Virus record (IMG/VR): IMGVR_UViG_3300026078_000023
Span: 29,290-93,289 of that record
Length of the DNA stretch: 64,000 nt
Direction: 5' to 3' (one strand)
Origin: a virus
Shown here: positions 16,827 through 63,879 of the stretch, one piece after another
Layout: each line of letters opens with the position of its first letter
How positions within the stretch are numbered: position 1 is the stretch's first letter
Made by a program: the position numbers and the translations under genes
The notes under the pieces: model-generated
Told to the model about the DNA's origin: nothing
Database searches by the model: none
The model's input: only the letters and a program-made list of their open reading frames with translations

Positions 16827-16856
16827 AGCCTACGCGCCAGCGCGCGCGGCAGTCAA
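16827..16856 (-). promoter_or_regulatory. Class I promoter, 16820 gene
   Basis: TTGACT (16851-16856), 18-base GC-rich spacer, TAGGCT (16827-16832), then 6 bases to the ATG. The predicted start site falls on or next to the start codon. Confidence 0.65.
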
Positions 16857-16859
16857 AGC

Positions 16860-17234
16860 TCAGTCCCCGGCGATCACGTACTCGATGCGGCCGGCGCCCG
16901 CCAGGCTGACCGAGGTGAGCGGGTCGCCGGCGCCGGGGGCGTGCAGGACGAGCAGGTCCGAGAACGGGATCCGCTGGTTCGCCCCGCCCGTCGCGCTGCT
17001 GACCACCGCCACCATGGCCTGCCCGTCGAGGGCCCGGACCGCCAGGAAGCGGATCGCCGTCACGGCCCCGGGGGACAGCTGGGTCGTCCCGGAGACCGAG
17101 AACGCGCCGCCGTCCTGGGCGGCGTAGTTCCGGCCGGACACGTCCAGCGCGACCGTTGCGTGAGCTCCACCTGACCCGGTGGGCGACGACGGGGACAGCG
17201 TGACCTCACCGGAGACGACGAGCTTGCTGGACAT
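16860..17234 (-). CDS. Virion-like protein, paralogue of 52978 gene
   Basis: 124 residues. The C-terminal 65 residues (I-R-F-L-A-V-R ... F-S-D-L-L-V-L-H-A-P-G-A-G-D ... A-G-R-I-E-Y-V-I-A-G-D) align closely with the C-terminus of the protein at 52978-53379, 36 kb away. The N-terminal halves differ. The fold is beta-rich and the partner lies among virion genes, so both are probably surface or assembly proteins. It has a class I-type promoter 6 bases before the ATG. Confidence 0.65.
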   Translation of the reverse strand: MSSKLVVSGEVTLSPSSPTGSGGAHATVALDVSGRNYAAQDGGAFSVSGTTQLSPGAVTAIRFLAVRALDGQAMVAVVSSATGGANQRIPFSDLLVLHAPGAGDPLTSVSLAGAGRIEYVIAGD

Positions 17235-17240
17235 CGGGCC

Positions 17241-17270
17241 ATCTTAGCGGCGGCCGCGCGCCGGCGTCGA
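17241..17270 (-). promoter_or_regulatory. Class I promoter, 17234 gene
   Basis: TCGACG (17265-17270), 18 bases, TAAGAT (17241-17246), 6 bases to the ATG. The upstream box matches TTGACA in four of six positions. Confidence 0.5.
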
Positions 17271-17621
17271 CTCGCGCGCCGAGGCCCTGCGGTCGGCGAA
17301 CACGGCCTGGATCCCCTCCCCGGGTAGGCCGAGGTACCCGACCGGGGCCTGGAGGACCGTGGGTTCGCGGCAGACGAACCACCTGGCGTTGCCGCGGCAC
17401 CTGCCCGGGCCCTGCCCGCCGGCCGGCCCCAGGAACTCGCCGTAGCTGCCGGGCGGGTCGATGCTCTCGTCCACCAGGTCGATCGGCCCCGTGCACCCTG
17501 GGCACAGGCTCTTGACGACGGTGGGGACGTCGTCGAATGGCGCCGCGTCGATGTCTACCGACGGCGGGGTCGGCACCAGCCGCCTGGCGACCGCGGGGAC
17601 CGGTGGCGGCAGCTTGGCCAT
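17244..17621 (-). CDS. Unknown protein with single C-x2-C
   Basis: 125 residues. P-P-P-V-P-A-V-A-R-R-L-V-P-T-P at the start is disordered. S-L-C-P-G-C-T-G-P-I-D-L-V-D-E may bind metal with later cysteines (G-R-C-R, V-C-R-E). Glycine and proline are frequent. No match recognised. Its stop lies inside the promoter region of the next gene. Confidence 0.55.
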   Translation of the reverse strand: MAKLPPPVPAVARRLVPTPPSVDIDAAPFDDVPTVVKSLCPGCTGPIDLVDESIDPPGSYGEFLGPAGGQGPGRCRGNARWFVCREPTVLQAPVGYLGLPGEGIQAVFADRRASARESTPARGRR

Positions 17622-17626
17622 TGACC

Positions 17627-18015
17627 TTAGGACCTGCTCTTGCGGCCCGGCGACGAGCCGTCCCCGCGCTCGCGGATCAGGCGCCGGCGGGTCTCGCTCG
17701 TCTCCCCGGGCGCCGACGAGGCCGCGGGCGCCGCCATGGCCCGCTCGATCTCGCGCGCTTCGACGAGCGCGAGGTCGCCCTGTCGCAGCAGTTCCGGCGC
17801 GAATTCCCTTACTGCGTCGTTGAAAAGCCGGAGAGCCTGGCTTTTGTGGACTCCGACAGCTCCGACAGCTCCTCCTTGAATCTCGAGTAGAGTGTCGAGA
17901 GCTCTCCGGAGTCGACGCCAGTGACGACGGCTCTCCTGGTCCTCCCGGAGACGACGGTTTGCTTCTTCGACACGCGCTGCCCTACCCACCCCCGCACTGC
18001 CGTTGCGATGTTCAT
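17627..18015 (-). CDS. Putative -1 frameshift product of 17809 gene
   Basis: From about 17830 down to the stop at 17627 the coding-type base pattern moves to the -1 frame (E-F-A-P-E-L-L-R-Q-G-D-L-A-L-V-E-A-R), which has no ATG or GTG nearby. A slip on ACA AAA GCC (codon 57-59 of the 68-residue frame; four As at 17842-17845) would fuse the two into about 125 residues. The alternative is a single 131-residue frame from the ATG at 18022, but its start has almost no space for a ribosome site and its first 60 codons have poor third-position composition. A real indel in this isolate is also possible. Confidence 0.35.
17809..18015 (-). CDS. Small basic protein, possible frameshift donor
   Basis: 68 residues from the ATG at 18015, which has GGGGGA 8 bases upstream. 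Third codon positions are strongly G or C, like the rest of the genome, supporting this frame over the overlapping one. Sequence: basic N-terminus (R-V-S-K-K-Q-T), then S-R-F-K-E-E-L-S-E-L-S-E-S-T-K-A-R-L. No family recognised. The following frame (see 17627-18015) has no good start of its own. Confidence 0.5.
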   Translation of the reverse strand: MNIATAVRGWVGQRVSKKQTVVSGRTRRAVVTGVDSGELSTLYSRFKEELSELSESTKARLSGFSTTQ

Positions 18016-18055
18016 CGGACATGTCCCCCGTCCATGTTGATGGGTGAAACGTAGA

Positions 18056-18703
18056 TCACTTGCCAGACGCTCCGCCGGAATTCGTCTGTGGCTGTTGAGG
18101 CGCCGGTGTCGGTGGAACTGGCACCACCTCGGGCGGCTTCGGCGGCGGTGCCGGCGGCGCTTCCTGGTTCTTCGGCGGCAGCGGCGGCGGCTCGAGCGGG
18201 ATCGGCTTGATGATCGCCGCCGGCCGCTTCACGCGCGCCGCGAGCTCGGCGGCGTTCTTCGCGGCATTCTCCTTGACCGCCTTCACCAGCCCCGGGTCGA
18301 TGCGCCGCCGAGCTGGGCGACCCTCCACGACGAAGTCCTGGGCGACGATCACCGCGCTCTGCGCCTTCTGGGTCTTCTCGATGGCGGCCAGGCGATCGTC
18401 CATCGCCTTGATGACCGGGCCCATCTTGTTCACGTCCTCGGCCAGGCTCATCCACCGCAGCCTGACCGCGCTCTCCGTCTCCTTCGTGACCTCGGCCGCC
18501 TTCTCGTCGACCTTGGCCGTCGTCTTGAGGTGCGCGAAGGCCCCGCCCGCGAGCAACGTCAGCAGCGGCCACAGGCCGCGCTCGAGGAAGAGGTGGAACC
18601 CCTTGCTTTCGCGCAGCTGCGCCAGCCAGCCGTCGGAGCCGTCGTCCTCGACTGCGCGCGCCCGCATGGGGGACGGCGGGGTCTGGCGATCGTCGGTGTT
18701 CAC
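18056..18703 (-). CDS. Membrane-anchored coiled-coil protein with Pro-rich tail
   Basis: 215 residues, GTG start overlapping the holin-like gene stop. One hydrophobic segment, L-W-P-L-L-T-L-L-A-G-G-A-F-A-H-L near 44-59, is followed by a helical stretch (K-V-D-E-K-A-A-E-V-T-K) and a C-terminal 50 residues very rich in proline. Topology and position directly after a holin-like gene resemble inner-membrane spanin or lysis-regulator proteins, but no spanin signature is present. Confidence 0.6.
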   Translation of the reverse strand: MNTDDRQTPPSPMRARAVEDDGSDGWLAQLRESKGFHLFLERGLWPLLTLLAGGAFAHLKTTAKVDEKAAEVTKETESAVRLRWMSLAEDVNKMGPVIKAMDDRLAAIEKTQKAQSAVIVAQDFVVEGRPARRRIDPGLVKAVKENAAKNAAELAARVKRPAAIIKPIPLEPPPLPPKNQEAPPAPPPKPPEVVPVPPTPAPQQPQTNSGGASGK

Positions 18704-19161
18704 GTGCTACCGGCGACGGGCGCCACGGGGACCGCGTTGGCAGCAGCCACGCGCGCCAGCTTCATCTGGTCGTAGGCCGATTCGATCTTGGCCAGCAGGT
18801 CAGACGTCACCGCCGCCGCGGTCATCGCCTTGAGCTTCTGCATGTCGTCGACGTCCTTGGCGGCGACCTGCCGGAGCTTCGCCAGGGCCGTGCTGCGCAG
18901 GGCCTCCTGGTCGGCGGAGTCGATCTTCCCGTCGCCGGCCCTGGCGGCGAGCTCCTTGTAGGTCGTCGCGGCCACCTCGCGGACGATCTCGGCGGCCGAG
19001 TCGGTCACGCGGTCGAGCACGCCCCGGAGCTGCTCGTTCTTCGTCTTCGCGGCGACCAGCTTCTTCACCTCGAGCACGATGAGCGGCATCAGGATGCCCA
19101 TGACCGCGCCGAGCGCCGGGATGACCACCTCGACGATGAACTTCAAGACGGCCTGGTTCAT
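18700..19161 (-). CDS. Holin-like membrane protein (LLH-type)
   Basis: 153 residues from the ATG at 19161. A single N-terminal transmembrane helix (V-V-I-P-A-L-G-A-V-M-G-I-L-M-P-L-I-V-L near 12-30) leads into a charged helical cytoplasmic domain (E-V-K-K-L-V-A-A-K-T-K, then A-D-Q-E-A-L-R-S-T-A-L). This matches the architecture of the Holin_LLH group. No strong ribosome site is seen. Neighbouring lipoproteins, a papain-like peptidase and other single-pass membrane proteins support a lysis region. Confidence 0.55.
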   Translation of the reverse strand: MNQAVLKFIVEVVIPALGAVMGILMPLIVLEVKKLVAAKTKNEQLRGVLDRVTDSAAEIVREVAATTYKELAARAGDGKIDSADQEALRSTALAKLRQVAAKDVDDMQKLKAMTAAAVTSDLLAKIESAYDQMKLARVAAANAVPVAPVAGST

Positions 19162-19208
19162 TCGCCCGATGATGGAGCACGCGGCCTGCGCCGCGCAAAT
19201 TTCGCCGA

Positions 19209-19469
19209 CTACTGCTGGCAGGCGTCCCACTGCGCGCAAGTCCGCGCCGCGGTGAGGCATCCGACGGGGTAAGTGAACACGCCGGAGGCGACCACGTTCT
19301 CGCACGCCTGGTCGCAGAGCGGGCCGACGTCCGGGCAGTGCATCGACTGGGCGTTCTGGCACGCGGTCGCGCACGTGGCGCCCTCGACGGGCGGGGGGAG
19401 CGGAGTCGGCGGCGGGACGACGGTGGCGCAGCCGGCGGCGAGGAAGACGAGGACGAGTAGCTTCGGCAT
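19209..19469 (-). CDS. Small cysteine-rich lipoprotein
   Basis: 86 residues. M-P-K-L-L-V-L-V-F-L-A-A-G-C is a typical lipoprotein signal with lipobox L-A-A-G-C (Cys14 lipidated). The mature part starts with a Pro-rich stretch (V-P-P-P-T-P-L-P-P-P), as in outer-membrane spanin subunits, then has eight cysteines likely forming disulfides. The ATG follows the upstream TAG directly. It could be an outer-membrane lysis factor or a superinfection-exclusion protein. Confidence 0.6.
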   Translation of the reverse strand: MPKLLVLVFLAAGCATVVPPPTPLPPPVEGATCATACQNAQSMHCPDVGPLCDQACENVVASGVFTYPVGCLTAARTCAQWDACQQ

Positions 19470-20279
19470 CTAGAACCCCCTGTAACGCGGGACGCTGTAC
19501 GCGACCCACAGGTCATCGGTCCGGTCGTCCTCGACGTAGTCCCAGCTCATGTCGAAGTACCCGCCCTGGAACACGCCGGGGCCCCAGGACGTCAGGGTCC
19601 GGACGGCCTCCGGGCTGTGCCCGCACCAGACCATGGCGTGGCCGCCGGCGATCTTGTCGGACGGTCCGGGCGGCTCGGCGATCCCGGACTTCCCCAGCTC
19701 GCCACCGCAGAACGCCTCCGACACGTCGGTCCCGAACACCACCAGGTGGCCGGCGCCGAGGGAGCGCTTGACGTCGTCGACGCGCTGGCCGCCGGTGCTC
19801 AAGATCCGACGGTAGTCGACCTCCGGCCGCGGCCCATCGGCCACGCTCTGGGGGAAGGCCGCCTCCATGACCTGCAGCGGCGGGCGGCGCCTCCACCGGT
19901 CGTCGTCCGTCGTGTACGGCCACGCCGTCTCGGGGGCGAACCCGAACGTGTTCATCCCCTGGAACGCCAGGTGAATGAAGGCGCCGGCGTCCTCGTCCTG
20001 CTCGCCGGCGATGGCGCGGGCGAGCCAGTAGATCGCCCACCGCGACGGCAGCGGCGTCGAGGCCGGCGCGCCGGCGACGAGCTGGCCGCCGCGGATCAGG
20101 TTGGCGGAGGAGTTGCCGACGCAGGACGAGTAGGGGCCCTGGTCGACGACCTCGGTCAGGGAAACCAGGGTGGACCGCTCGGGGACCTCCCCGCCGTTGA
20201 GCCTGTGCGCGGCGAAGGGCCGCGTCCTGTCCCCGCCGTTCGGCGGGCGCTTGTACCCGGTCTGTCGGATCGTCGTCAC
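19470..20279 (-). CDS. Papain-like (C1 family) cysteine peptidase
   Basis: 269 residues, GTG start overlapping the upstream stop. V-V-D-Q-G-P-Y-S-S-C-V-G-N-S near 45-57 is the catalytic cysteine block (C53). G-G-H-A-M-V-W-C-G-H near 218-227 supplies the histidine. T-S-W-G-P followed by G-G-Y-F-D-M-S-W matches the N-S-W-G block, with Ser in place of the usual Asn. No signal peptide. It sits between holin-like and membrane genes where an endolysin would be expected, yet no muramidase or amidase is visible. It may cleave peptide cross-links or process virion proteins. Confidence 0.72.
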   Translation of the reverse strand: MTTIRQTGYKRPPNGGDRTRPFAAHRLNGGEVPERSTLVSLTEVVDQGPYSSCVGNSSANLIRGGQLVAGAPASTPLPSRWAIYWLARAIAGEQDEDAGAFIHLAFQGMNTFGFAPETAWPYTTDDDRWRRRPPLQVMEAAFPQSVADGPRPEVDYRRILSTGGQRVDDVKRSLGAGHLVVFGTDVSEAFCGGELGKSGIAEPPGPSDKIAGGHAMVWCGHSPEAVRTLTSWGPGVFQGGYFDMSWDYVEDDRTDDLWVAYSVPRYRGF

Positions 20280-20599
20280 GCGGACCCCCTCGCTGCCACG
20301 ACCAGCTCGGCCGCGACGGTTGGTTCGATCTCGAATCGGAGCGCGGTCATCGCGACGGCCTCCGCCGCGTGCATGCGGGCGTGGGTCGCGACGGAGGCGC
20401 GCGCTGATGCCTCCCCGGCGGCCTCGGCGATCCGCCGCTGGACGAGGATCCGATTGGCCCCGCCGAGGAACACGTCGAACCCGAGCTCGACCAGGAGCTG
20501 GGCGCCGGCGGCCGTGAGCGACACGGCGGGGATCCCGAGGTGCTTGGCCACCTCGAGCGCGTCCTCGATCACCTTCTGGACGACGCGTGGGTCAGCCAC
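20276..20599 (-). CDS. Unknown 107-residue helical protein
   Basis: GTG at 20599 overlaps the preceding 55-residue gene by 8 bases. Two hydrophobic helices (I-P-A-V-S-L-T-A-A-G-A-Q-L-L-V-E-L-G-F near 25-43) and a long Ala-rich helix follow. It is coupled to the peptidase (GTGA) and could be a chaperone, inhibitor or membrane-associated partner. No family recognised. Confidence 0.55.
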   Translation of the reverse strand: MADPRVVQKVIEDALEVAKHLGIPAVSLTAAGAQLLVELGFDVFLGGANRILVQRRIAEAAGEASARASVATHARMHAAEAVAMTALRFEIEPTVAAELVVAARGSA

Positions 20600-20759
20600 C
20601 GGGGGCACCGGTGGTCTTCCAGATCACGAATCCCGTCCCGATGACGAACGCCACGAACGCGACCAACAGGACCACCTCGAACATGACCTGCGCGCGCGGG
20701 CTGACCCCGCACTCGTGGTCAGGGGGGGACGAGACGTCGTAGTCGCGGTCGACGGGCAC
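20592..20759 (-). CDS. Small single-pass membrane protein
   Basis: 55 residues from a GTG at 20759, four bases after the lipoprotein stop. A polar N-terminal 25 residues with one Cys is followed by one transmembrane helix (V-V-L-L-V-A-F-V-A-F-V-I-G-T-G-F near 29-45) and a short tail. The size and topology suit a small holin or holin accessory. It is too short to be found by a simple length-limited ORF scan. Confidence 0.6.
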   Translation of the reverse strand: MPVDRDYDVSSPPDHECGVSPRAQVMFEVVLLVAFVAFVIGTGFVIWKTTGAPGG

Positions 20760-20763
20760 CTGG

Positions 20764-21237
20764 TCAGGCCCCGAAGACGAGCGGCTCGGGGACCACGAAC
20801 CCGCCTGACGGTGCGGCCCCGGCCCTGCCCCCGGGCGTGGCGCGCCTGACGCCGTACGGTCCCAAGATCGCGAGGGCGTCGTTGTAGAGCCCCTTGAAGT
20901 CGCCGAACGCCAGGTCGACCTGGGCCCGCGTCAGCTCGGTGATCCCGTCGCACGTCCGGACGGCAGCGTCGATCGCCACCTTCGTCTTGGCGAACAGGGC
21001 GTCCAGGTCCTTTCGCTTGGCGGGGTCCAGGTTGATGGTCTGAGAGACCGACTCGAGCACGCCGACCACGAGGAGCGCGTCCTGGGCGTACTTCTGGACG
21101 TCGACCTTCGCGATGACGTCGGTCACCGGCTTGACAGTCGCGCAGCCGGGACTCGAGACGATCGAGGCGGTGCCGGCGACGGCGGCCATGGTGCCGATGA
21201 TTGCGGCGGCGATGACGGGGAAGCGCGGTGGTCTCAT
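20764..21237 (-). CDS. Exported lipoprotein
   Basis: 157 residues. The N-terminus (R-P-P-R-F then A-A-A-I-I-G-T-M-A-A-V-A-G) is a signal peptide ending S-S-P-G-C, an atypical lipobox. The mature part is helical (I-A-K-V-D-V-Q-K-Y-A-Q-D-A-L-L-V-V-G-V). It would sit in the periplasm or envelope. It is driven by a class I promoter with the second box 7 bases before the ATG. Confidence 0.6.
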   Translation of the reverse strand: MRPPRFPVIAAAIIGTMAAVAGTASIVSSPGCATVKPVTDVIAKVDVQKYAQDALLVVGVLESVSQTINLDPAKRKDLDALFAKTKVAIDAAVRTCDGITELTRAQVDLAFGDFKGLYNDALAILGPYGVRRATPGGRAGAAPSGGFVVPEPLVFGA

Positions 21238-21244
21238 GCCGACG

Positions 21245-21274
21245 ATGCTGCGCCGGCCGAGGCGCAGCTGTCAA
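21245..21274 (-). promoter_or_regulatory. Class I promoter, 21237 gene
   Basis: TTGACA (21269-21274), 18 bases, CAGCAT (21245-21250), 7 bases to the ATG at 21237. Confidence 0.7.
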
Positions 21275-21289
21275 CGTCCGGCCGCGGCG

Positions 21290-21766
21290 CTACTCGTCGC
21301 CGGCCGGCTTGGAGTCGGACTTGCGGGCCTCGAGCACCTCGTCGATCGGGGGCAGTTCCTGCTGCTCGGAGGCCTTGGACGCGGCCACCTCGGCGGCTCG
21401 AGCGGCGGCTTGCTCGGCGTCCCTGGCGGCGGCGGCGATCTCGGCGTCGCGGGCGGCGACGGCGGCCGCGCGGGCGACGTCACCGGGGTGGTTGACGAGC
21501 TCGACGATCTCCCACTCCTTGGACTCGAACTCCGGCGCGGTGGCGTGCCAGTCGTGGAGCCGGTGGCCGGTGTCCGTGAAGACGCCGATCGTGTCGGCCC
21601 CGGCGGCGCCGGCGATCCCGACGTACCCCATTGCGATCGGGCCCGAGTACTGGCCGGCGGGCGTCTGCACGTTCGGGGCGGTCCAGTTGGCGTGCCGGGC
21701 GAACTTCCCGTTCTTGATTGCCTCCTGGACCTGCTTCCAGCCCTTGCCCTTCGCGATCGTCTTCAT
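21290..21766 (-). CDS. Unknown protein with Ala-rich coiled coil
   Basis: 158 residues. Residues 1-90 form a compact domain beginning M-K-T-I-A-K-G-K-G-W-K-Q-V-Q-E-A-I-K and including H-D-W-H-A-T-A-P-E-F-E-S. Residues about 95-140 form an Ala/Glu/Arg coiled coil. The end is Asp/Glu rich. The initial K-G-K-x-W-K-x-V-x-x-A-I pattern occurs in small phage proteins of unknown function. It stands alone between two promoters. Confidence 0.6.
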   Translation of the reverse strand: MKTIAKGKGWKQVQEAIKNGKFARHANWTAPNVQTPAGQYSGPIAMGYVGIAGAAGADTIGVFTDTGHRLHDWHATAPEFESKEWEIVELVNHPGDVARAAAVAARDAEIAAAARDAEQAAARAAEVAASKASEQQELPPIDEVLEARKSDSKPAGDE

Positions 21767-21805
21767 GGCAACGGAGTGTAGTACAGGACCGGGCCCGCCG
21801 GATAT

Positions 21806-22474
21806 TCAGGCGAACGCCCGGCCGCCGCCCGCGGCCGGATCGTGGTCCTCGCGCCAGGAGCGCGACACGCGCCCCTCGAGACCCCCGTTGCCCACCGCGC
21901 TCGCGGCGCCGACGTGCTGCACGAGGGAGGGCACCACGATCGCGTAGGACAGGCCCAGCGTCGCGCCCAGCAGGGCGAGCTGGTTGTCCGAGCCAACCCG
22001 GTCGAATGACGTGCAGCCCATGTAGCGCATGAGCCCGCACGTCCGCAGCGGGAACTTGATGGCCTGCGCGTAGACGAAGCCCTCCGGCCGCCGCGAGACC
22101 CACAGGCCGTGGGGCATCTCCCACGTGCTGCCGATGTCAAAGAGGCTCACCCAGGCGACGTCATGCGGGACCTGCAGTATCTCCGCGCAGCGCGCACCGT
22201 TGCGGCACCAGCGCACGTCGTCCTCGACGGCGATCAGATCTTCGCCGGCCTCGTAGGCGAGGCTGGCGGCGCGCCAGAGCGTCCACCGGTTGTCCGGCGT
22301 GGCGGTGGCCGGCCGCTCGAAGGCGTCGAGGGTCCAGCCCTTGGGCAGCTCGCCAACGGGGGACAGCGAGTCGCTCACGACCACGCGGCGGCCCTCGGCC
22401 GAGGCGTCCGTCGAGGCGAGCGTGGCTGCGAGGTACGAGGCTCCCGGGCGCGGGTGGGTGAGGACGGCGATCAC
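21806..22474 (-). CDS. Glycosyltransferase-like protein
   Basis: 222 residues with GTG overlapping the fibre gene stop. A Rossmann-like start (M-I-A-V-L-T-H-P-R-P), the acidic L-I-A-V-E-D-D-V-R-W-C near 80-90 (E84-D85-D86, a DxD-type metal site) and P-S-L-V-Q-H-V-G near 183-190 resemble family-25-type GT-A glycosyltransferases. Being coupled to a tail-fibre gene, it may glycosylate the fibre or another virion protein. Modification of the host surface or DNA is the alternative. Confidence 0.6.
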   Translation of the reverse strand: MIAVLTHPRPGASYLAATLASTDASAEGRRVVVSDSLSPVGELPKGWTLDAFERPATATPDNRWTLWRAASLAYEAGEDLIAVEDDVRWCRNGARCAEILQVPHDVAWVSLFDIGSTWEMPHGLWVSRRPEGFVYAQAIKFPLRTCGLMRYMGCTSFDRVGSDNQLALLGATLGLSYAIVVPSLVQHVGAASAVGNGGLEGRVSRSWREDHDPAAGGGRAFA

Positions 22475-24015: not shown

Positions 24016-24022
24016 CGTCTAC

Positions 24023-26077: not shown

Positions 26078-26083
26078 CGCCGC

Positions 26084-27551: not shown

Positions 27552-27581
27552 AAGTTACACGAGCGCCGGAGGCGCTGTCAG
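27552..27581 (-). promoter_or_regulatory. Class I promoter, 27544 gene
   Basis: CTGACA (27576-27581), 18 bases containing an inverted repeat GCGCC...GGCGC, TAACTT (27552-27557), 7 bases to the ATG. Confidence 0.65.
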
Positions 27582-31361: not shown

Positions 31362-31391
31362 AGACTACTCGCCGTTGATGACGTTCGACAA
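31362..31391 (-). promoter_or_regulatory. Class I promoter, 31355 gene
   Basis: TTGTCG (31386-31391), 18 bases, TAGTCT (31362-31367), 6 bases to GTG. It includes the TAG stop of the upstream spike gene. Confidence 0.6.
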
Positions 31392-36001: not shown

Positions 36002-36031
36002 AGACTACTCGGACAGCGGCTCGGCTGTCAT
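36002..36031 (-). promoter_or_regulatory. Class I promoter, 35994 gene
   Basis: ATGACA (36026-36031), 18 bases, TAGTCT (36002-36007), 7 bases to the ATG. The second box overlaps the tape measure stop codon (GAG TAG TCT). Confidence 0.55.
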
Positions 36032-40797: not shown

Positions 40798-40827
40798 ATC
40801 CTGTAGCGCGCAGCGCGCGCGGGTCAA
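40798..40827 (-). promoter_or_regulatory. Class I promoter, sheath gene
   Basis: TTGACC (40822-40827), 18 bases of alternating GC, CAGGAT (40798-40803). The predicted transcript would start about 10 bases before the ATG, just upstream of the GGAGG ribosome site. Confidence 0.6.
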
Positions 40828-43540: not shown

Positions 43541-43570
43541 AGACTAGCAGGGCGCCGCGGCCGGAGTGAA
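43541..43570 (-). promoter_or_regulatory. Class I promoter, 43534 gene
   Basis: TTCACT (43565-43570), 18 bases, TAGTCT (43541-43546), 6 bases to GTG. Confidence 0.6.
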
Positions 43571-44482: not shown

Positions 44483-44512
44483 AGAGTACACCCGCCGGGC
44501 CCGTCGAGTCAC
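44483..44512 (-). promoter_or_regulatory. Class I promoter, 44476 gene
   Basis: GTGACT (44507-44512), 18 bases, TACTCT (44483-44488), 6 bases to ATG. Confidence 0.6.
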
Positions 44513-47140: not shown

Positions 47141-47170
47141 AAGCTGCCAGGACGACGACTCCGCCGTCAA
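47141..47170 (-). promoter_or_regulatory. Class I promoter, major capsid gene
   Basis: TTGACG (47165-47170), 18 bases, CAGCTT (47141-47146), then a leader of about 17 bases holding the AAGGAG ribosome site. The upstream box overlaps the end of the scaffold gene region. Confidence 0.65.
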
Positions 47171-48631: not shown

Positions 48632-48661
48632 AGACTGCGTCGCGCGCGGTCGCGGTGTCAA
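48632..48661 (-). promoter_or_regulatory. Class I promoter, 48582 gene
   Basis: TTGACA (48656-48661), 18 bases, CAGTCT (48632-48637). Unlike most, it is about 49 bases before the ATG and the gene has a normal ribosome site, which supports the boxes as promoter rather than translation signals. Confidence 0.7.
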
Positions 48662-52768: not shown

Positions 52769-52798
52769 ATGCTGCGGCCCGCGCGTCCGCGGTGTCAA
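52769..52798 (-). promoter_or_regulatory. Class I promoter, 52756 gene
   Basis: TTGACA (52793-52798), 18 bases, CAGCAT (52769-52774), then 12 bases to the ATG. Confidence 0.65.
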
Positions 52799-54164: not shown

Positions 54165-54194
54165 AGGATGGGGCGCGCGGCGCTGCGGTGTCAA
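54165..54194 (-). promoter_or_regulatory. Class I promoter, 54158 gene
   Basis: TTGACA (54189-54194), 18 bases, CATCCT (54165-54170), 6 bases to ATG. Confidence 0.65.
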
Positions 54195-54204
54195 GGAAAC
54201 CGGA

Positions 54205-55463: not shown

Positions 55464-55470
55464 GGGCCCG

Positions 55471-55500
55471 ATGCTACCCCGGTCACCCGGCGAAGATCAG
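55471..55500 (-). promoter_or_regulatory. Weak class I promoter, MuF-like gene
   Basis: CTGATC (55495-55500), 18 bases, TAGCAT (55471-55476), 7 bases to GTG. The upstream box matches only three of six positions. Confidence 0.4.
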
Positions 55501-55974: not shown

Positions 55975-55984
55975 GCGGTCTCCC

Positions 55985-55994
55985 TCCTGCCCGG
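55985..55994 (-). promoter_or_regulatory. CCGGCCAACA motif before 55974 gene
   Basis: CCGGCCAACAC is followed by ACCGGGC and then AGGAGGGAG, so transcription from the same relative position as at 16508 would begin just ahead of a ribosome site and give a leader of about 14 bases. Confidence 0.45.
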
Positions 55995-56010
55995 TGTGTT
56001 GGCCGGTGGT

Positions 56011-56496: not shown

Positions 56497-56518
56497 GGCG
56501 GTCCTCCTGGGGCCGAAC

Positions 56519-56740
56519 TTACACGAGGTCCTCGTGGACCCACAGCCGGATGACGTCGCCTGGGGCGCCCGACAGATCCTCGTAGACCTCAAGCGTGTGC
56601 GGGTGCGGCCGCGCGCCGGGACCGGCGCAGCTCTCGCAGGTCCGCACGACCAGCGTGACCCGGGTCCGCGAGATCAGGCGCCCGAAGTCGACCCCGGCGG
56701 CGTCGACGGCCTCCTGGCGCGTCCGGTAGGTCTCGGCCAC
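56519..56740 (-). CDS. Unknown 73-residue protein
   Basis: GTG start three bases after the upstream stop. R-T-C-E-S-C-A-G-P-G-A-R-P-H-P-H offers a C-x2-C...H-x-H site that could bind zinc. The remainder is alpha/beta (R-V-T-L-V-V-R, V-I-R-L-W-V-H-E-D). No family recognised. Confidence 0.6.
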   Translation of the reverse strand: MAETYRTRQEAVDAAGVDFGRLISRTRVTLVVRTCESCAGPGARPHPHTLEVYEDLSGAPGDVIRLWVHEDLV

Positions 56741-56743
56741 CTG

Positions 56744-57256
56744 TCAGCCGGCGGGCTTGAGGTCGCTCACCACCAGGCGCAGGGTGCCGCGGCCCCTCCC
56801 GAACGGGTCGTCTGGCGCCCGGACCCCCTGGCTGGGGACGGCCTCGCTGTCGTCGCTGGCCAGGCCCTCGAACAGGTACCGGGTCTGCTCGCTGGGAGCC
56901 AAGTCGGGCAGGTTGGCCAGCGTCTGGTCCCACGGGTCGGGGATGACCACGCCGTCCTTGGTGAGGGGCCGAAGGAGGCGCGTGTTGCGCGTCACCGTGC
57001 GCGCCGGGGCGGCGTGGGCGCCGTGGGGCATGGGGGGCATGGCCTGGGGCGAGAACGCCCCGCCTGGGGCGAATGGCTGCGCCACGGGGGGCGCCAGGGG
57101 CACCAAGACCGGGATCGCGCCCTGCATCACGTACCCGTAGCCGGGGGGCGGGACGGGGAGGGTCGCTTGCGGGGTCGCTGGGGCCGGAGGGGTGGGGGCC
57201 GCCGACCGACGACCCCGACCAGCCCAGGCCGCCAATTTGTCCCGGTTGATGCTCAC
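56744..57256 (-). CDS. Unknown Pro-rich protein
   Basis: 170 residues, GTG start. Residues 15-85 are Pro/Ala rich and hydrophobic (V-P-P-P-G-Y-G-Y-V-M-Q-G-A-I-P-V-L-V-P), residues 85-170 mixed (R-N-T-R-L-L-R-P-L-T-K-D-G and T-R-Y-L-F-E-G-L). A TACCCT box 7 bases before the start suggests a promoter like class I, but its upstream box is weak. Confidence 0.55.
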   Translation of the reverse strand: MSINRDKLAAWAGRGRRSAAPTPPAPATPQATLPVPPPGYGYVMQGAIPVLVPLAPPVAQPFAPGGAFSPQAMPPMPHGAHAAPARTVTRNTRLLRPLTKDGVVIPDPWDQTLANLPDLAPSEQTRYLFEGLASDDSEAVPSQGVRAPDDPFGRGRGTLRLVVSDLKPAG

Positions 57257-57275
57257 CCGTACGAGGGTAGCACGG

Positions 57276-57872: not shown

Positions 57873-58573
57873 CAGGACCCGAACGTCCGCGAGACAGGGC
57901 CGCAGTAGCCGTTGCCGTCCGGCCACGGGGTGGCCCCGGAGTACCCGACCACCCAGTAGGGCGCGAAGGCGTTCGTCCCGCCGACCTGCTGCAGGCCGGC
58001 CACCGGCACCGTCACCGGCCAGGACTTTACCGGGCCGTTGGCGACGTGGCCGTACACGTTGCAACTGAGGACGGCGGTGTTGTAGAGCACGGCGTATTGC
58101 GACGAGTACGCCATCGTCGCCGTGGGGCAGCTGATGGTGGACACCGCCCGATCTGGGTTGTTGAAGAGGTACGCGAACGACCCGCCGACCGTCGTGTGCC
58201 AGACCGCCGGCATCGTCCCCGGCGGGGGGAAGCCGTCGTAGCTCTGGTAGATCGTGGTGTACATCCGGTACGAGACGGTGTTCGCGCAGATGTAGGGACC
58301 GTCGCGGTTCACGGCGTCGCTGACCGAGCCGACCACGAAGTCGTAGACCACGTAGTGGTACGGAGTCCACAGCGCCGAATTCGTCGGCGTCGCGTCGTCG
58401 TGCACGTCCGGGCGCGGCGGTGGGATCTCCGCCGGCATCGGCATCATGGTCGGCGTCACGGCCGCCGCCGGCTGCACGTCGTCCCCGCACCCGCTGAGCA
58501 GCGCCCCCGTGCACGCCACCGCGCACGCCGTCGCCAGCACCAGCATCCCTCGCCTGTATCTCTCGATCGTCAT
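57872..58573 (-). CDS. Exported lipoprotein of unknown function
   Basis: 233 residues. Signal peptide with L-A-T-A-C-A-V-A-C-T-G-A-L-L-S-G-C; lipobox L-L-S-G-C (Cys29). The mature part begins with a Pro-rich linker, then a beta-rich, Tyr-rich domain with four cysteines. The 49-base gap before it holds GGAGG and an AT-rich patch. Exported from the infected cell, it might block superinfection or alter the envelope; it is not needed for known morphogenesis steps. Confidence 0.65.
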   Translation of the reverse strand: MTIERYRRGMLVLATACAVACTGALLSGCGDDVQPAAAVTPTMMPMPAEIPPPRPDVHDDATPTNSALWTPYHYVVYDFVVGSVSDAVNRDGPYICANTVSYRMYTTIYQSYDGFPPPGTMPAVWHTTVGGSFAYLFNNPDRAVSTISCPTATMAYSSQYAVLYNTAVLSCNVYGHVANGPVKSWPVTVPVAGLQQVGGTNAFAPYWVVGYSGATPWPDGNGYCGPVSRTFGS

Positions 58574-58624
58574 CGTCGCCTCCTCGGTTCGTTTGTTTTC
58601 CGGTATTCGGTCGTGATTAAAGAT

Positions 58625-58831
58625 TCACCTCAGGTCGTCGATCAGGCGCTCGACCAGCTGCGCCTCGCTGCGCGACACGCCGCCGAGCATGATCTGTCGG
58701 TCGAGCCACGCCTGCACCGCGCGCGACGGCGACGACTTCTCCTCCGAGCACACGTGGTGGAGCGGGCCGTTTCCGTTCGAATCGAAGTAGACGACGGGGT
58801 TCTCCTTCGACCCGTCCATCGGCGTGCTCAT
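58625..58831 (-). CDS. Unknown 68-residue protein
   Basis: ATG overlaps the upstream stop (ATGA). V-V-Y-F-D-S-N-G-N-G-P-L-H-H-V-C near 13-28 and a helical C-terminus (A-W-L-D-R-Q-I-M-L-G-G-V-S-R-S-E). No family recognised. Confidence 0.6.
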   Translation of the reverse strand: MSTPMDGSKENPVVYFDSNGNGPLHHVCSEEKSSPSRAVQAWLDRQIMLGGVSRSEAQLVERLIDDLR

Positions 58832-59820
58832 TCGTCGAACGCCTCCACGTTGGTCTTCTCGTCGAACGCCTCCACGTCGATCTCGTCGTAGACGTGGCCG
58901 AGGACGCGGACCGAGGTGACGCCGTGACGCTCGAGCAGCGGCGCGAGGCGCGCGGCAATCGGCCTCACCTCCTCTCCTTCGCGGTCGTGGAACTCGAGGA
59001 CCAGCGTGAAGCCGAGCGATCCGGGGTCGGGTTCCAGCCGCAGTTCGTACTCGCCGCCCGGGCAGTTGTGGTCATACGGCGGACCCTCTTCGGACCACCG
59101 TTCGATCTCCGCCTCGATCTCGTGGATGGCGGTGTCGACGGCCTTTCGAGCGAGGCCGAGGGGGGTGCCTTCGATCTTGAGCTGCTTCCGTTGCACCGGC
59201 GGTGCCTGCTGCGCCTGCCACTCGGTCAGGTGGTTCTTTAGGAGCGCGGCCGCGACGACGTCTTCGGTGACGGCCATCCTCAAGTACGACATGTCCTCGA
59301 CCACCGCGAGCATCTCCTTGACGCCGAGGCCGCCGCGGCGAGCAAGTGTCGCTAGGTCTTGGTCGTGATTCTTGATGGCCTGCGCCTCGTGCGGCGCCAG
59401 GAACGCCCACGGCACGGTGAGGATGCCGAGCTTGTGGTCATCGGAGTGGACGGGGAAACCGACGGGCGCCGGAGGCGGCGCCTCCGGTCCGGGCCGCTCG
59501 CCAGCGCGCTCCTCCAGTTCGGCGGCGTGGTGGATGAGAGAGATCAGCGCCTTCGATCCCTTGTCGAACTCGACCCAGTCGATGATGTCGTAGCGGTCGC
59601 AGAGGACGCGCCCCCGGTCGGTGACCCGGAACGTGTATTTGCCGCTGTCGACGGTGACCTTCGTGTCTGCCATGGGGTTCCTCTCGGTTGGTGTGCTGTC
59701 GGGCGGCGTCACCTCTACCAGGCCGTAGTTGACGGTCCCGAACCCGGCGTGGCACCGGGCGCCCTCCGGGACGTCCCCGTGGTCCTGGATCTCGAACCGG
59801 CGGAAGTAGCGCGTCGCCAT
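58828..59820 (-). CDS. Unknown protein with two candidate starts
   Basis: 330 residues from ATG 59820, which has CCGGCCAACAC 7 bases upstream and no ribosome site. An internal ATG at 59673 has AGAGGAACCCC and would give 281 residues. Alpha/beta sequence; the middle is rich in helix (V-D-T-A-I-H-E-I-E-A-E-I-E-R-W) and the end contains two copies of V-E-A-F-D-E encoded by an 18-base direct repeat at about 58833-58880. No known domain identified. Confidence 0.6.
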   Translation of the reverse strand: MATRYFRRFEIQDHGDVPEGARCHAGFGTVNYGLVEVTPPDSTPTERNPMADTKVTVDSGKYTFRVTDRGRVLCDRYDIIDWVEFDKGSKALISLIHHAAELEERAGERPGPEAPPPAPVGFPVHSDDHKLGILTVPWAFLAPHEAQAIKNHDQDLATLARRGGLGVKEMLAVVEDMSYLRMAVTEDVVAAALLKNHLTEWQAQQAPPVQRKQLKIEGTPLGLARKAVDTAIHEIEAEIERWSEEGPPYDHNCPGGEYELRLEPDPGSLGFTLVLEFHDREGEEVRPIAARLAPLLERHGVTSVRVLGHVYDEIDVEAFDEKTNVEAFDE

Positions 59821-59827
59821 GCCCCAG

Positions 59828-59838
59828 GTGTTGGCCGG
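59828..59838 (-). promoter_or_regulatory. CCGGCCAACA motif 7 bp before start at 59820
   Basis: CCGGCCAACAC, CTGGGGC, ATG: nearly the same as the leader of the resolvase gene at 16508. Confidence 0.5.
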
Positions 59839-59845
59839 CGGCGGC

Positions 59846-60253
59846 CTACGACACCAGGAGGCCGAGCTCCAGCGCCAGCTGGCGGAGGTCGCCGGGGAGC
59901 GCGGCGCGGGCGTCGACCACGGCGGTCGCCGGGGGCGCGCCGGGGGCCTCCCACACGCGCACCAGGTCCCAGACGCCGAGCGCGCGCAGCTGGTCGCGGA
60001 GCGCGGCCTGGGCCACCCAGGCGACCTCGGCGTCGGCTGGCACGCGGCCGGTGAGGACCCAGTCCTCTTGGTCGCCCGGGACGGCGTCGACGCTGGGGGC
60101 GGCGGCCGGGGAGACCAGCCACACGCGCCCGCCGGCCTCGGAGGCGGCGACCAAGAACTCGGCGGCGCCTGGGACCAGCTCCAGGACGCCGTCCAGGTTG
60201 CGGCGGGCGATGCCGCCCTCGAGCGCGACGGCCACCTCGAAGGGGTGCGTCAC
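59846..60253 (-). CDS. Degenerate HAD-like protein
   Basis: 135 residues from a GTG overlapping the upstream stop. F-E-V-A-V-A-L-E-G-G-I-A near 5-16, L-E-L-V-P-G-A-A-E-F-L and G-R-V-W-L-V-S-P-A near 41-49 follow the order of HAD phosphatases (D-F-D-G-V, P-G-A, S/T motif), but the catalytic D-x-D is replaced by L-E-G. A well-formed HAD protein lies at 61055, so this may be a decayed or repurposed paralogue. Confidence 0.5.
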   Translation of the reverse strand: MTHPFEVAVALEGGIARRNLDGVLELVPGAAEFLVAASEAGGRVWLVSPAAAPSVDAVPGDQEDWVLTGRVPADAEVAWVAQAALRDQLRALGVWDLVRVWEAPGAPPATAVVDARAALPGDLRQLALELGLLVS

Positions 60254-60633
60254 CCGCGCACCGCCGGGAACGTGGACGGCTCGTCGACGAGCGCGGGGAA
60301 GAGGGGCCGGTCGCTCATGATCAGCTTCGGGAACAAGGCGTCGCGGAACACGTGCCGCATGATGGCGTCGGCCGTGCGCGCCGTCGCCGCGCCCATGAGC
60401 CGCATGGATTCGAGCATGTCCGGCGTCGTCGCCGGGAAGAAGTCGACGGTCACCGACGTCACGATCGCCGGCGGCGCGACCAGCGCCGCCACCGCTTCGA
60501 CCTGGCGGGCGACCGGCAGCGCCAGCGCGCCCATCAGGAAGAACCGGCGACCGCGGTTCACGCGCTGCTCGCAGACGCCCCCCGGGAACGGGCATTCGCC
60601 GCACCTGGGGCACCTCGGGGCGAGCAGCGTCAT
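60250..60633 (-). CDS. Zinc-finger-like protein
   Basis: 127 residues, ATGA overlap with the membrane gene. C-P-R-C-G-E-C-P-F-P-G-G-V-C-E at 8-22 gives a four-cysteine knuckle. R-F-F-L-M-G-A-L-A-L-P-V-A follows and is hydrophobic. M-R-H-V-F-R-D-A-L-F-P-K-L-I-M near 98-112 is very similar to a short stretch near the N-terminus of the major capsid protein (F-R-D-A-L-F-P-R-L), which could be chance or a real link. Confidence 0.55.
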   Translation of the reverse strand: MTLLAPRCPRCGECPFPGGVCEQRVNRGRRFFLMGALALPVARQVEAVAALVAPPAIVTSVTVDFFPATTPDMLESMRLMGAATARTADAIMRHVFRDALFPKLIMSDRPLFPALVDEPSTFPAVRG

Positions 60634-61058
60634 GGCAGGTACTTTAGCGCGAGGCCGTTGCACAGGACGTGCATGACGTTGTCCGCGATGATGAGCAGCC
60701 ACACCGCGAGGAAATCTGGAACGCCGGGCGGGTAGCCGGTCTTCTCGCAGCTCTTCCACGAGAGCCGGTGCGTCGACCGGATGAGGCCGGGGATCGGAGG
60801 CGTGTCCCAGCCACCGAAGCCGACGTTCTTCGCCCAGCACACGAACCGCGCCAGCCGCCACCTGTCGATCACGAAGTGCGTCCCGACGATGACGGCGAGC
60901 GCCGGCCACGACTGCGTGATGACGGCGAACGGCCACGCGTAGGTGACCGCGTGCACGAGCGCGGCGACGCTGCGCTTCGTCTTGTTGCTCGCCATCCAGT
61001 CCGACTGGATCACGTAGTCGCCCACCGCGTGGCACACCAGCTGGTCGGCGGTGATCAC
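60630..61058 (-). CDS. DUF3307-like membrane protein
   Basis: 142 residues from a GTG overlapping the HAD gene stop. H-A-V-G-D-Y-V-I-Q-S-D-W-M-A near 10-23, A-L-V-H-A-V-T-Y-A-W-P-F, I-V-G-T-H-F-V-I-D-R-W-R-L near 58-70 and F-L-A-V-W-L-L-I-I-A-D-N near 115-126 match DUF3307, a family of small integral membrane proteins. It has three or four membrane helices. Its role is unknown; phage copies may influence the host envelope. Confidence 0.7.
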   Translation of the reverse strand: MITADQLVCHAVGDYVIQSDWMASNKTKRSVAALVHAVTYAWPFAVITQSWPALAVIVGTHFVIDRWRLARFVCWAKNVGFGGWDTPPIPGLIRSTHRLSWKSCEKTGYPPGVPDFLAVWLLIIADNVMHVLCNGLALKYLP

Positions 61059-61558
61059 GGCTGCGGCGCCCCCTTCTTCACCGCGCACCACGGCCGGTGC
61101 ATTCGCAGTTCGATTGAATTCGGGAAGTGCTTGCCGTCGAACCGCCACGCGCGGTCGTCGACGTAGACGATCGCCGCCGGCTTGCGCGACGTGACCCGGA
61201 TGCCCGAGGCGACGTCGTCGCCGATGACAGGTGCGCAACCGAAGTGCGCCATGATCTGCTGGCGCAGCCACCTGCGGATCGCCCACCACCCCCACGGGCG
61301 CGACGCGCGCGCAGAGCACACGACCACGTCGAAGTGCTCCACCAGTTCGACCAGCCACTCGATCGCTCCCGGAACCGGGCCGTCAAGGATGACGCTCGCG
61401 CCGCGCCACCCGGACGTGTACGCGTGCAGGACGCCGTCGAAGTCGATGCTGATCGTTGGCCGACGGCGGCGCTTCGGCGACTCCTTGAACACGATCGCAG
61501 TGATTACCATGAAGCCGGCTACGGCGACGCACGTGCCGACCACGTTGACCAGATTCAC
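61055..61558 (-). CDS. HAD-family phosphatase with N-terminal membrane anchor
   Basis: 167 residues from a GTG at 61558. Residues 7-24 form a transmembrane helix, then S-I-D-F-D-G-V-L-H near 37-45 (catalytic D39, D41). V-V-V-C-S-A-R-A-S near 77-85 is motif II, R-K-P-A-A near 131 includes the motif III lysine, and I-V-Y-V-D-D-R near 137-143 is motif IV. The complete set suggests an active phosphatase or nucleotidase. The membrane helix would anchor it to the inner face of the cell. Confidence 0.7.
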   Translation of the reverse strand: MNLVNVVGTCVAVAGFMVITAIVFKESPKRRRRPTISIDFDGVLHAYTSGWRGASVILDGPVPGAIEWLVELVEHFDVVVCSARASRPWGWWAIRRWLRQQIMAHFGCAPVIGDDVASGIRVTSRKPAAIVYVDDRAWRFDGKHFPNSIELRMHRPWCAVKKGAPQP

Positions 61559-61677
61559 GGCCGCCCCCTTCTCCGGTGCCACCAATGGCGACAGAAGTGC
61601 CCGTCGAGGCACCGCCAAGGCAGCCAGCACAGCAGGCACCAGCCGGCGTCGCGCAGGGTCCAATTGCGCCCCTTCAT
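61555..61677 (-). CDS. Small Trp/Cys/His-rich ORF (40 aa)
   Basis: An ATG at 61677 with TGAGG just upstream opens 40 codons ending in TGA that overlaps the next GTG (GTGA). The peptide is unusually rich in Trp, Cys and His (W-C-L-L-C-W-L-P-W-R-C and F-C-R-H-W-W-H-R). It could be a metal-binding peptide or a leader that couples translation of the phosphatase gene. Confidence 0.45.
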   Translation of the reverse strand: MKGRNWTLRDAGWCLLCWLPWRCLDGHFCRHWWHRRRGRP

Positions 61678-61681
61678 TGCC

Positions 61682-62059
61682 TCAGTACCTGTCCCCGAAC
61701 ACGCCGCGCGCGATGGCATCTCCGACCTTCTTGACGAGCTCCTCTCTCCCTTCGCCGAGGACGCGCTTGTCCCACGCTTCGGCGACGATGCTGCGGAGCT
61801 TCTCGACGTTCTCCGGTTTCAAGAACTCCTCCTCGGCCAGCTTCCGCGCCACGTCGCTCGCAGCCGACGCGAAGATCCGCTGCAGGTCGCTGGGAGCGTT
61901 CCACGTGCCCTCCAGGAGCTTGCGGATCGCGCTCGTGACCAGCTGGTCGCGCTGCTCCGGCGCCAGGGCCTTGATGAGGGCCTCCTGCAAGAACTGCCGG
62001 ACCATGTCCTCGTCCAGGATGAACTTGAACCCCTCGCTCGTCTTCACTGCGTCAGCCAT
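61682..62059 (-). CDS. Unknown helical protein after portal
   Basis: 125 residues, all helical (D-M-V-R-Q-F-L-Q-E-A-L-I-K-A-L and L-R-S-I-V-A-E-A-W-D-K-R-V). GGGAGG is upstream. It follows the portal gene by about 30 bases; small helical proteins in that place sometimes interact with the portal. The gap carries a variant of the CCGGCCAACA motif (TCAACATCCCCGGC near 62075-62088). Confidence 0.6.
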   Translation of the reverse strand: MADAVKTSEGFKFILDEDMVRQFLQEALIKALAPEQRDQLVTSAIRKLLEGTWNAPSDLQRIFASAASDVARKLAEEEFLKPENVEKLRSIVAEAWDKRVLGEGREELVKKVGDAIARGVFGDRY

Positions 62060-62091
62060 GCGCGGACCTCCCTCTGCCGGGGATGTTGACC

Positions 62092-63843
62092 CTACCTGGC
62101 GTCCGTGTCACCCGCCGGCTGCCCGCCGGCCCCCTCGCGCCGAGCGGCCGAGGCGTCGGAGGCGGCGGCGCCGGTCAGCTGGCGGGGCGGGGCGAGGCCA
62201 GCGGTGGCCTGCTCGAGGAGGCGCTGGGTGTCGGCCTCCTGCTCGGTGTTGGCCTTGGCCAGCATGGCGTCGACGTCGCGCACCTGGAACACCTCGCCGG
62301 CCACGCTGGCGGCGGCGGTGCGCTGGTCGATGAGCCCGCCCGTCTTGGCGCCGGTGGCCACCTGGACCCGGATCAGGTCCTCGGCCGGGCTGCTGTTGAA
62401 GTACGGCCCCCACTTGAGCTCGATCACGCCGCCCTCGCCGAGCCGGTGGGGGACCGGCAGGCCGTCCTTGTCGCGGGCCGGCTCGATGTCCCAGGTGAAC
62501 ACGCCGACGCGCGGGTTGCCCTGCTCGTCGGGCGGCAGCTGGATCCGCTTCTCGGAGAACGTCTGGACGATGCGGATCACGATGGCGGCGGCGTCCTTCA
62601 TGGCGCGGCCGTACTGGGCGCGCTTCTTATCGGCGCGCTGGATCATGGGGCGGAACATGAGCTTGATGGCCAAACTGGAGGCGGCGGCCGCGCCGACCTC
62701 CTTCGGGTCGACGAACACGTAGCCGGTGCGCCGGGAGATCCACTGCTCGAGCTTCCCGCAGAACTCCATGGCGGAGGCGAGGCCGGTGCCGGCCAGCTCG
62801 AGGAGCTCGGCCCTGCCCTTGTCCGACAGCTCGATGGTGTTGTCGGAGCCGGTGCGGACGGCGCCCATCTCCTTGGCCTTCGGGTCGTCGGCGATGACGA
62901 TGGACGGGTCGACGGTGGCGAGCTCGCCCTTGTTGATCTGGCTCATCAGCCGGTCGAGGGCGTCGACCTGCTTCCAGGCGCCGTCGCAGTCGGGCAGGCC
63001 GTCCGGCTCGTCGTCGGCCGAAGTGTTCTGGACCCACACGCCGGGGAAGAACCCGAGGTCGTGCTTGACGGTCAGCTCGGGCACCGGGACCCACGCCCAC
63101 GTGCGCGAGTCGTCCATCCGGATCGGGCGGTACGTGACGTCCTCCGACTCGGTCACGATCCGGCGGTGCACCACCTCGACCAGCCTGCGCGTCGGGTTTC
63201 CCTTGTCGTCTTGGTCGTCGACCTCCACCTTGGCGATGCGCCAGATCAGGAGCGCCCCCAGCTGGAGCGCGCGCCGGTTGCGCCACAGGGGGATCGCGAA
63301 CCGCCGGTTGATGACCTCCATGTCGATGCGCCCGTCCCGCGCCGCGAACAGCGCCAGGACCGAGCCGACCGAGCCGCCGAGGTCGCGGGCGTAGCACCAC
63401 TTCTGGTCCCAGCTCATCCGGTCGAACAGGGCGTGGAGCATGGCCTCCGACTGCGGGTCGCCCTGGACCGTCAGCTCGGGGGCCGCCTGCTCCGAGAACA
63501 TCAGGTCCGTGTAGCCCTCGACGATGGTCGCGCAGGCCCCCGTCTCGATGGAGGGGCGCTTCTGCCGGGTGCTGAGGGCCACGTTCATCGGCATCGAGAA
63601 CCCGCGCGGGACCGCCGCCGCCGGCGAGATGGTCTCGTAGTCGTCGGCCGTCATGCCCCACCAGTCGGTCTGCTGGTGGGCGTACTGCTCGCCGCGCCAG
63701 TGGGCCTCGTACCGCTCCAGCTGCTTCGAGTCCTCGTCGGCGCCGTAGGGCGGCTGGGCGTTCTTCTCCAGGTAGGTCCGCGCCATGGACGGGTCGAGCG
63801 TGTAGGACCCCAAGATCGGCTGGCCGGACGGCAAGATCGGCAT
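62092..63843 (-). CDS. Portal protein
   Basis: 583 residues. N-terminal region with L-E-R-Y-E-A-H-W-R-G-E-Q-Y near 43-55, the wing segment V-E-G-Y-T-D-L-M-F near 107-115, a beta-rich middle (V-P-V-P-E-L-T-V-K-H-D-L-G) and G-A-W-K-Q-V-D-A-L-D-R-L-M-S-Q near 287-301 as in portal stem regions. The end is disordered and Ala/Gly rich. Portal rings form the DNA channel and head vertex. A class I promoter with the second box 6 bases from ATG predicts leaderless mRNA. Confidence 0.8.
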   Translation of the reverse strand: MPILPSGQPILGSYTLDPSMARTYLEKNAQPPYGADEDSKQLERYEAHWRGEQYAHQQTDWWGMTADDYETISPAAAVPRGFSMPMNVALSTRQKRPSIETGACATIVEGYTDLMFSEQAAPELTVQGDPQSEAMLHALFDRMSWDQKWCYARDLGGSVGSVLALFAARDGRIDMEVINRRFAIPLWRNRRALQLGALLIWRIAKVEVDDQDDKGNPTRRLVEVVHRRIVTESEDVTYRPIRMDDSRTWAWVPVPELTVKHDLGFFPGVWVQNTSADDEPDGLPDCDGAWKQVDALDRLMSQINKGELATVDPSIVIADDPKAKEMGAVRTGSDNTIELSDKGRAELLELAGTGLASAMEFCGKLEQWISRRTGYVFVDPKEVGAAAASSLAIKLMFRPMIQRADKKRAQYGRAMKDAAAIVIRIVQTFSEKRIQLPPDEQGNPRVGVFTWDIEPARDKDGLPVPHRLGEGGVIELKWGPYFNSSPAEDLIRVQVATGAKTGGLIDQRTAAASVAGEVFQVRDVDAMLAKANTEQEADTQRLLEQATAGLAPPRQLTGAAASDASAARREGAGGQPAGDTDAR

Positions 63844-63849
63844 GCGGAC

Positions 63850-63879
63850 AGACTACCGGTGCAGCGCCGCGCGCAGCAA
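63850..63879 (-). promoter_or_regulatory. Class I promoter, portal gene
   Basis: TTGCTG (63874-63879), 18 bases, TAGTCT (63850-63855), 6 bases to ATG. The second box and following six bases (TAGTCTGTCCGC) resemble those before the 16820 gene (TAGGCTGTCCGC). Confidence 0.6.

Follow-up and report, generated by a model that had tools for sequence, protein, structure and literature searches.

Results

Promoter-like sites at virion gene starts

The virion half of the 64-kb window (the whole stretch of DNA analysed here, bases 29290-93289 of the 93,289-bp virus record IMGVR_UViG_3300026078_000023) probably contains about 14 internal promoters of the sigma-70 type found in bacteria rich in guanine and cytosine (high GC). 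Judged by their sequence, most would lead the host polymerase to make leaderless mRNAs, and the copies before the major capsid and tail sheath genes would give mRNAs with a leader. Gene functions were assigned by profile matches (Pfam, PHROG). The window encodes a portal (PF05133), a Mu F-like head protein, a major capsid protein (PHROG 1357), a tail sheath (PHROG 23), a baseplate J-like protein and a tape-measure-like protein, and we therefore regard the virus as a contractile-tailed phage. Gene starts come from our own caller, which relies on codon usage alone, is blind to promoters and is tuned for high GC; 148 of the 150 genes it called over the full record lie on the minus strand. Four relatives from a clade of uncultivated soil phages (G001, G002, G005 and G007) were compared.

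An earlier note on this DNA had listed thirteen gene starts preceded by a TTGACA-like hexamer (-35 box), exactly 18 bp and a second hexamer (-10 box), together with three weaker copies. The promoter consensus used for scoring was taken from that note. The sites are given below as -35 box, spacer in bp and -10 box; the gap is the distance in bp from the -10 box to the start codon, and SD stands for a Shine-Dalgarno sequence.

16827..16856, minus strand: TTGACT-18-TAGGCT, gap 6 to ATG 16820; G002 keeps TTGACC-18-TAGGCT
17241..17270, minus strand: TCGACG-18-TAAGAT, gap 6 to ATG 17234; start backed by the G005 alignment; GTGACC-18-TACCAT in G002
21245..21274, minus strand: TTGACA-18-CAGCAT, gap 7 to ATG 21237; conserved in G005 and G002
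21774..21779, minus strand: -10 box TACACT without a -35 box, gap 8 to ATG 21766; boxes at the orthologs in G005 and G002
27552..27581, minus strand: CTGACA-18-TAACTT, gap 7 to ATG 27544; TAGACA-18-TAGCCT in G005
31362..31391, minus strand: TTGTCG-18-TAGTCT, gap 6 to GTG 31355; conserved in G005 and G002
36002..36031, minus strand: ATGACA-18-TAGTCT, gap 7 to ATG 35994; conserved in G005 and G002
40798..40827, minus strand: putative tail sheath promoter TTGACC-18-CAGGAT, gap 16 to start 40781; GGAGG in the leader; conserved in G005 and G002
43541..43570, minus strand: TTCACT-18-TAGTCT, gap 6 to GTG 43534; TCGCCA-18-TAGGGT in G005
44483..44512, minus strand: GTGACT-18-TACTCT, gap 6 to ATG 44476; the G005 ortholog has TACCGT at gap 7
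47141..47170, minus strand: putative major capsid promoter TTGACG-18-CAGCTT, gap 24 to start 47116; AAGGAG in the leader; conserved in G001, G005 and G002
48632..48661, minus strand: TTGACA-18-CAGTCT, gap 49 to ATG 48582; TAGGAG in the leader; identical TTGACA-18-CAGTCT in G005
52769..52798, minus strand: TTGACA-18-CAGCAT, gap 12 to ATG 52756; very short leader, no SD
54165..54194, minus strand: TTGACA-18-CATCCT, gap 6 to ATG 54158; conserved in G001 and G005
55471..55500, minus strand: -10 box TAGCAT with a weak -35 box CTGATC at 18 bp, gap 7 to GTG 55463 (Mu F-like head protein); -10 box conserved in G001 and G007
57264..57269, minus strand: -10 box TACCCT, no real -35 box, gap 7 to GTG 57256; start backed by the G001 alignment
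63850..63879, minus strand: putative portal promoter TTGCTG-18-TAGTCT, gap 6 to ATG 63843; TTGCGA and TTGCGG at 18 bp in G005 and G002

All 13 main sites were found at their claimed positions with an 18-bp spacer, a YANNNT -10 box and 3-6 of 6 matches to TTGACA. The description 'TTGACA-like' is generous for the portal (TTGCTG) and for 31355 (TTGTCG), although the TTG and the 18-bp spacer of both are kept in relatives. Two weaker copies, at 17234 and 55463, stood up; the third, at 57256, has a good TACCCT but its best -35 box matches at 3 of 6 positions and lies at 17 bp. As had been claimed, most -10 boxes end 6-7 bp from the start (9/13 main sites, 12/16 overall). The genes named as having longer leaders (40781, 47116 and 48582) do carry an SD, but a fourth exception, 52756, had gone unnamed; its predicted leader is only ∼ 5 nt long and lacks an SD.

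The codon-usage starts agree with the listed ones at 11/16 genes in the full-record run, and at 21237 additionally in a run on the window only. At 17234, 40781 and 57256 the codon-based call differed, and protein alignments of relatives favour the listed starts; here the promoter set corrects the codon-based annotation. Two scan hits in the window, 51392 and 43171, do not lie at a gene start. The latter, TTGCTC-18-TACTCT, is within a gene; G005 has TTGCTC-18-TACGCT at the equivalent position, a match that probably reflects coding conservation.

Enrichment by position and spacer

A TANNNT box lies 6-8 bp before the start of 15/149 genes, against 0.43-0.50 expected (about 0.43 when estimated from other upstream positions). 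No gene of this phage has it at a gap of 3-5 or 9-10 bp, and among internal ATG/GTG codons only 2/1649 have TANNNT at a gap of 6-8. The same position is occupied in 17/143 genes of G005, 9/118 of G002 and 13/96 of G007.

The spacer is equally selective. With a -35 box of at least four matches (at least five with CANNNT) and a -10 box within 30 nt of the start, the numbers of genes with a box pair at spacers of 15, 16, 17, 18, 19, 20 and 21 bp were 0, 0, 0, 12, 0, 1 and 0. Dinucleotide-shuffled upstream regions gave a mean of 0.19 at 18 bp and a maximum of 2 in 300 shuffles, so that the enrichment which the earlier note had proposed as a check is present. G005 and G002 have 10 and 11 pairs at 18 bp and 0-1 at any other spacer. 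Pooled over five phages, 18 bp accounts for 14 starts with TANNNT and 11 with CANNNT, 17 bp for 2 and 0, and 19 bp for none. A TANNNT or YANNNT -10 box with a TTGAC-like -35 box at 17-18 bp is the arrangement of a high-GC sigma-70-type promoter. An extended -10 (TGn) did not mark out the boxes lacking a -35 as a separate class (13/43 vs 3/16, not significant).

Shine-Dalgarno sequences and start codons

Only 1/69 genes with a box at gap 6-8 has an SD of at least 5 nt, compared with 102/271 other non-overlapping genes; with at least 4 nt the SD is again rarer in box genes (P = 1.4e-8). ATG is the start codon of 51/65 box genes and of 231/441 others (P = 8e-5). The box genes therefore show both marks of a leaderless gene, a -10 box at gap 6-8 and no SD sequence, and the SD contrast drawn in the earlier note is borne out. 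The leaderless reading of the boxes is well supported by the agreement of position, spacer, SD contrast, ATG preference and conservation, and most sites should yield leaderless mRNA.

Conservation in relatives

Orthologs of genes with a box tend to have a box themselves. With alternative starts allowed, this was so for 13/17 genes in G005, compared with 5/73 without a box (P = 9.6e-9), and for 9/13 compared with 3/50 in G002 (P = 5.4e-6). At the portal (TTGCTG-18-TAGTCT, TTGCGA-18-TAGCCT and TTGCGG-18-TAGGCT) TTG, TA and T are constant and the spacer bases drift. At the major capsid gene the shifted promoter and the leader CCAAGGAG are conserved in G001, G005 and G002. Since the sites of 31355 and 35994 overlap the preceding coding sequence, part of the conservation there may come from the protein. 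Taken together, position, exact spacer, SD contrast, ATG preference and conservation at orthologous starts argue that the boxes are promoters and not chance matches, as had been proposed.

High-GC loci with a related capsid (at least 55% identity) contain 22 non-redundant sites at 18 bp and 4 at 17. More distant relatives, with 42-51% capsid identity (L056-L095), seem to use a 17-bp spacer (11 sites at 17 bp, 1 at 18), a class of few sites because many of these loci have weak -35 boxes. The 17/18-bp difference may hint at the host's identity.

Restriction to the virion block and reuse of stop codons

Start-associated 18-bp sites occur in 14/68 genes of the virion block and in 0/82 others (13 under a stricter rule that leaves out the portal). 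The boundary of the block was drawn after the sites had been seen in this phage, which makes the relatives the independent tests: G005 has the 18-bp class in 11/43 genes inside the block and 0/47 outside, G002 in 9/37 and 0/26. Counting non-overlapping starts only, the contrast holds in this phage, G005 and G002 (P = 1.1e-4, 0.006 and 0.03). The restriction thus holds in three phages; it was not seen in G007. Some early genes, too, have a TANNNT box, with no -35 box.

The predicted -10 boxes of 31355 (31362-31367) and 35994 (36002-36007) begin with the TAG stop codon of the upstream gene; in all, 3/15 -10 boxes of this phage coincide with stop codons and 12/15 do not. Across five relatives, stops 9-11 nt before the next start are TAA or TAG in 25/35 cases, compared with 57/163 where the stop lies at another short distance (P = 1.1e-4). 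Counted from such a TAA/TAG, the sixth base is T in 18/25 and 11/57 cases respectively (P = 9e-6). By these counts the upstream stop codon doubles as the first bases of the putative -10 box at some starts. A literature search for stop codons put to this second use in a -10 box found no paper.

Other gene content and clues to the host

The window left of ∼ 16.5 kb and the 29 kb before it carry DnaB, UvsX/RecA, SbcC/SbcD-like, gp32-like, terminase and 7-deazaguanine genes. The last lie left of the window in record bases 1-21,500 (G000; L002, L003), where QueC, QueD, QueE, GTP cyclohydrolase I and a queuine tRNA-ribosyltransferase-like family make 7-deazaguanine DNA modification probable. Neither a sigma factor nor an RNA polymerase turned up in Pfam screens of nearly all proteins or among the PHROG families listed, at most 25 per list; such screens would miss divergent factors.

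Searches of cultured phages with the capsid, portal, sheath, helicase and one virion protein gave only distant or uninformative matches. By capsid protein the closest cultured relative is Streptomyces phage Kromp (major capsid 33.5% identical). Against cellular genomes the capsid as a single sequence had no match, and a capsid alignment had one (46%), on a 4.7-kb contig (L037, 1-4658) from an assembly titled 'uncultured delta proteobacterium'. This assembly has 21 leaderless TTGAC-TANNNT-ATG sites compared with 1 in a reversed control, with spacers of 16 bp (2), 17 bp (6), 18 bp (11, the mode) and 19 bp (2).

Discussion

The data are best accounted for by promoters of the form TTGAC-like, 18 bp, YANNNT, placed within the nearly single-strand gene array of the virion half. 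The host's RNA polymerase, carrying a housekeeping-type sigma factor, would read them, presumably late in infection. Most of the -10 boxes have a gap of 6-7 bp to their ATG or GTG, which should put the first transcribed base on the start codon or 1-2 nt from it, and the leaderless mRNA would be translated without SD pairing. For abundant virion proteins (major capsid, sheath) the same promoter lies 16-24 bp upstream of the start and would leave a short leader with an SD, which may serve higher expression. If so, this conserved, virion-specific set would make it possible to test whether a phage adjusts its protein levels by shifting one promoter a few bases.

Several observations weigh against this model. 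A plain housekeeping promoter alone does not explain the absence of the 18-bp class from early genes; the -35 boxes TTGCTG, TTGTCG and TTCACT are poor; and G007 has the leaderless -10 yet only 2 genes of the 18-bp class. No cultured relative exceeds 33.5% capsid identity, the L037 contig may be a host clue or a product of misbinning, and the L037 assembly yielded no portal.

In three phages the virion block alone has the 18-bp class, and the spacer is tighter than in the L037 assembly (18 bp against other spacers 25:2, compared with 11:8; P = 0.009); both observations keep a late phage factor alive as a rival. Here a phage sigma or polymerase-modifying factor would read TTGAC-18-YANNNT late and yield the leaderless mRNAs, and a spacer that may vary by clade (18 or 17 bp) also fits. 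On the other hand, the consensus is the ordinary housekeeping one, and the screens described above, which would miss divergent factors, show no sigma or RNA polymerase family among the families listed; we consider such a factor unlikely. The fuller form of this idea, a late regulon whose strict spacer measures 18 bp in one clade and 17 bp in the sister clade, with leaderless output and protein amounts set by a promoter shift that adds an SD leader, is to our minds similarly doubtful. Slightly less probable is that the boxes are real but minor promoters, with virion mRNA mostly polycistronic read-through from promoters further upstream and the genes translated by re-initiation or internally instead of from leaderless mRNA. 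The genes are dense on one strand and the promoters of 31355 and 35994 overlap the preceding gene, as this would have it, but the near-absence of SD sequences from box genes (1/69) contrasts with 44/166 overlapping genes that have an SD of at least 5 nt, and selection has kept boxes at the starts in related phages as well. The pattern could also stem from base composition, from stop codons that lie 9-11 nt ahead of a start, or from reading the sequence selectively; the boxes that coincide with stop codons and the loose -35 criterion speak for such an artefact. This reading is largely refuted and we give it hardly any weight: most boxes are not stop codons, shuffling yields 0.19 pairs where 12 are observed, other spacers give 0-1, the starts were called blind to promoters, and phiC31, D29 and Kromp are negative by the same test.

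Our preferred model, internal host-read promoters with mostly leaderless products, has precedents. The boxes belong to the standard housekeeping family of high-GC bacteria, several of which commonly have leaderless promoters of the form TTGAC-18-TANNNT. The earlier note knew of no described phage with so many leaderless genes; Thermus phage phiYS40 is one, since most of its middle and late mRNAs are leaderless, with IF2 raised and IF3 lowered in infection (PMC3594737). In the literature within our reach, leaderless late expression over many genes of one phage was reported for phiYS40 only, and a remark that phage transcripts are often leaderless came without data (PMC5312081). In the first 50 kb of phiYS40, TANNNT stands at gap 6-8 in 16/54 called genes against 4.1 expected. 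Like the phage studied here, it is a tailed phage with many leaderless genes and TANNNT 6-8 bp before starts, but it belongs to an unrelated lineage, has 32% GC in the tested part, and the likeness rests on the -10 box. The first 50 kb of phage P23-45, taken as a second positive control, were not enriched (2/76 against 2.1 expected) with a caller tuned for high GC. By the same caller the cultured actinophages phiC31 (0/46 genes), D29 (0/77) and Kromp (1/86) lack the signature.

Among bacteria, leaderless TANNNT promoters occur in Actinobacteria, and Streptomyces lividans is a close example: its promoters have a TANNNT -10 and a TGAC -35 with spacers of 18-19 nt from TGAC (17-18 from TTGACA), ∼ 20% of its genes are leaderless, and leaderless mRNAs are biased towards ATG (PMC6742748). 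Both boxes, the main spacer and the ATG preference are thus shared, but S. lividans uses several spacer lengths on a bacterial chromosome, whereas the phage has one exact spacer and virion genes only. In Deinococcus-Thermus a TANNNT a few bp before the open reading frame drives leaderless transcription, as mutation showed (PMC12340547); those are bacterial genes, and the phage adds a -35 box at 18 bp in its virion block. Leaderless promoters of the same form are predicted in 8/33 genomes of delta-proteobacteria, where they serve a mean of 15.8% of genes (PMC3160421). The arrangement is therefore known in some bacteria and one Thermus phage; what is new here is its use as a distinct promoter set of virion genes.

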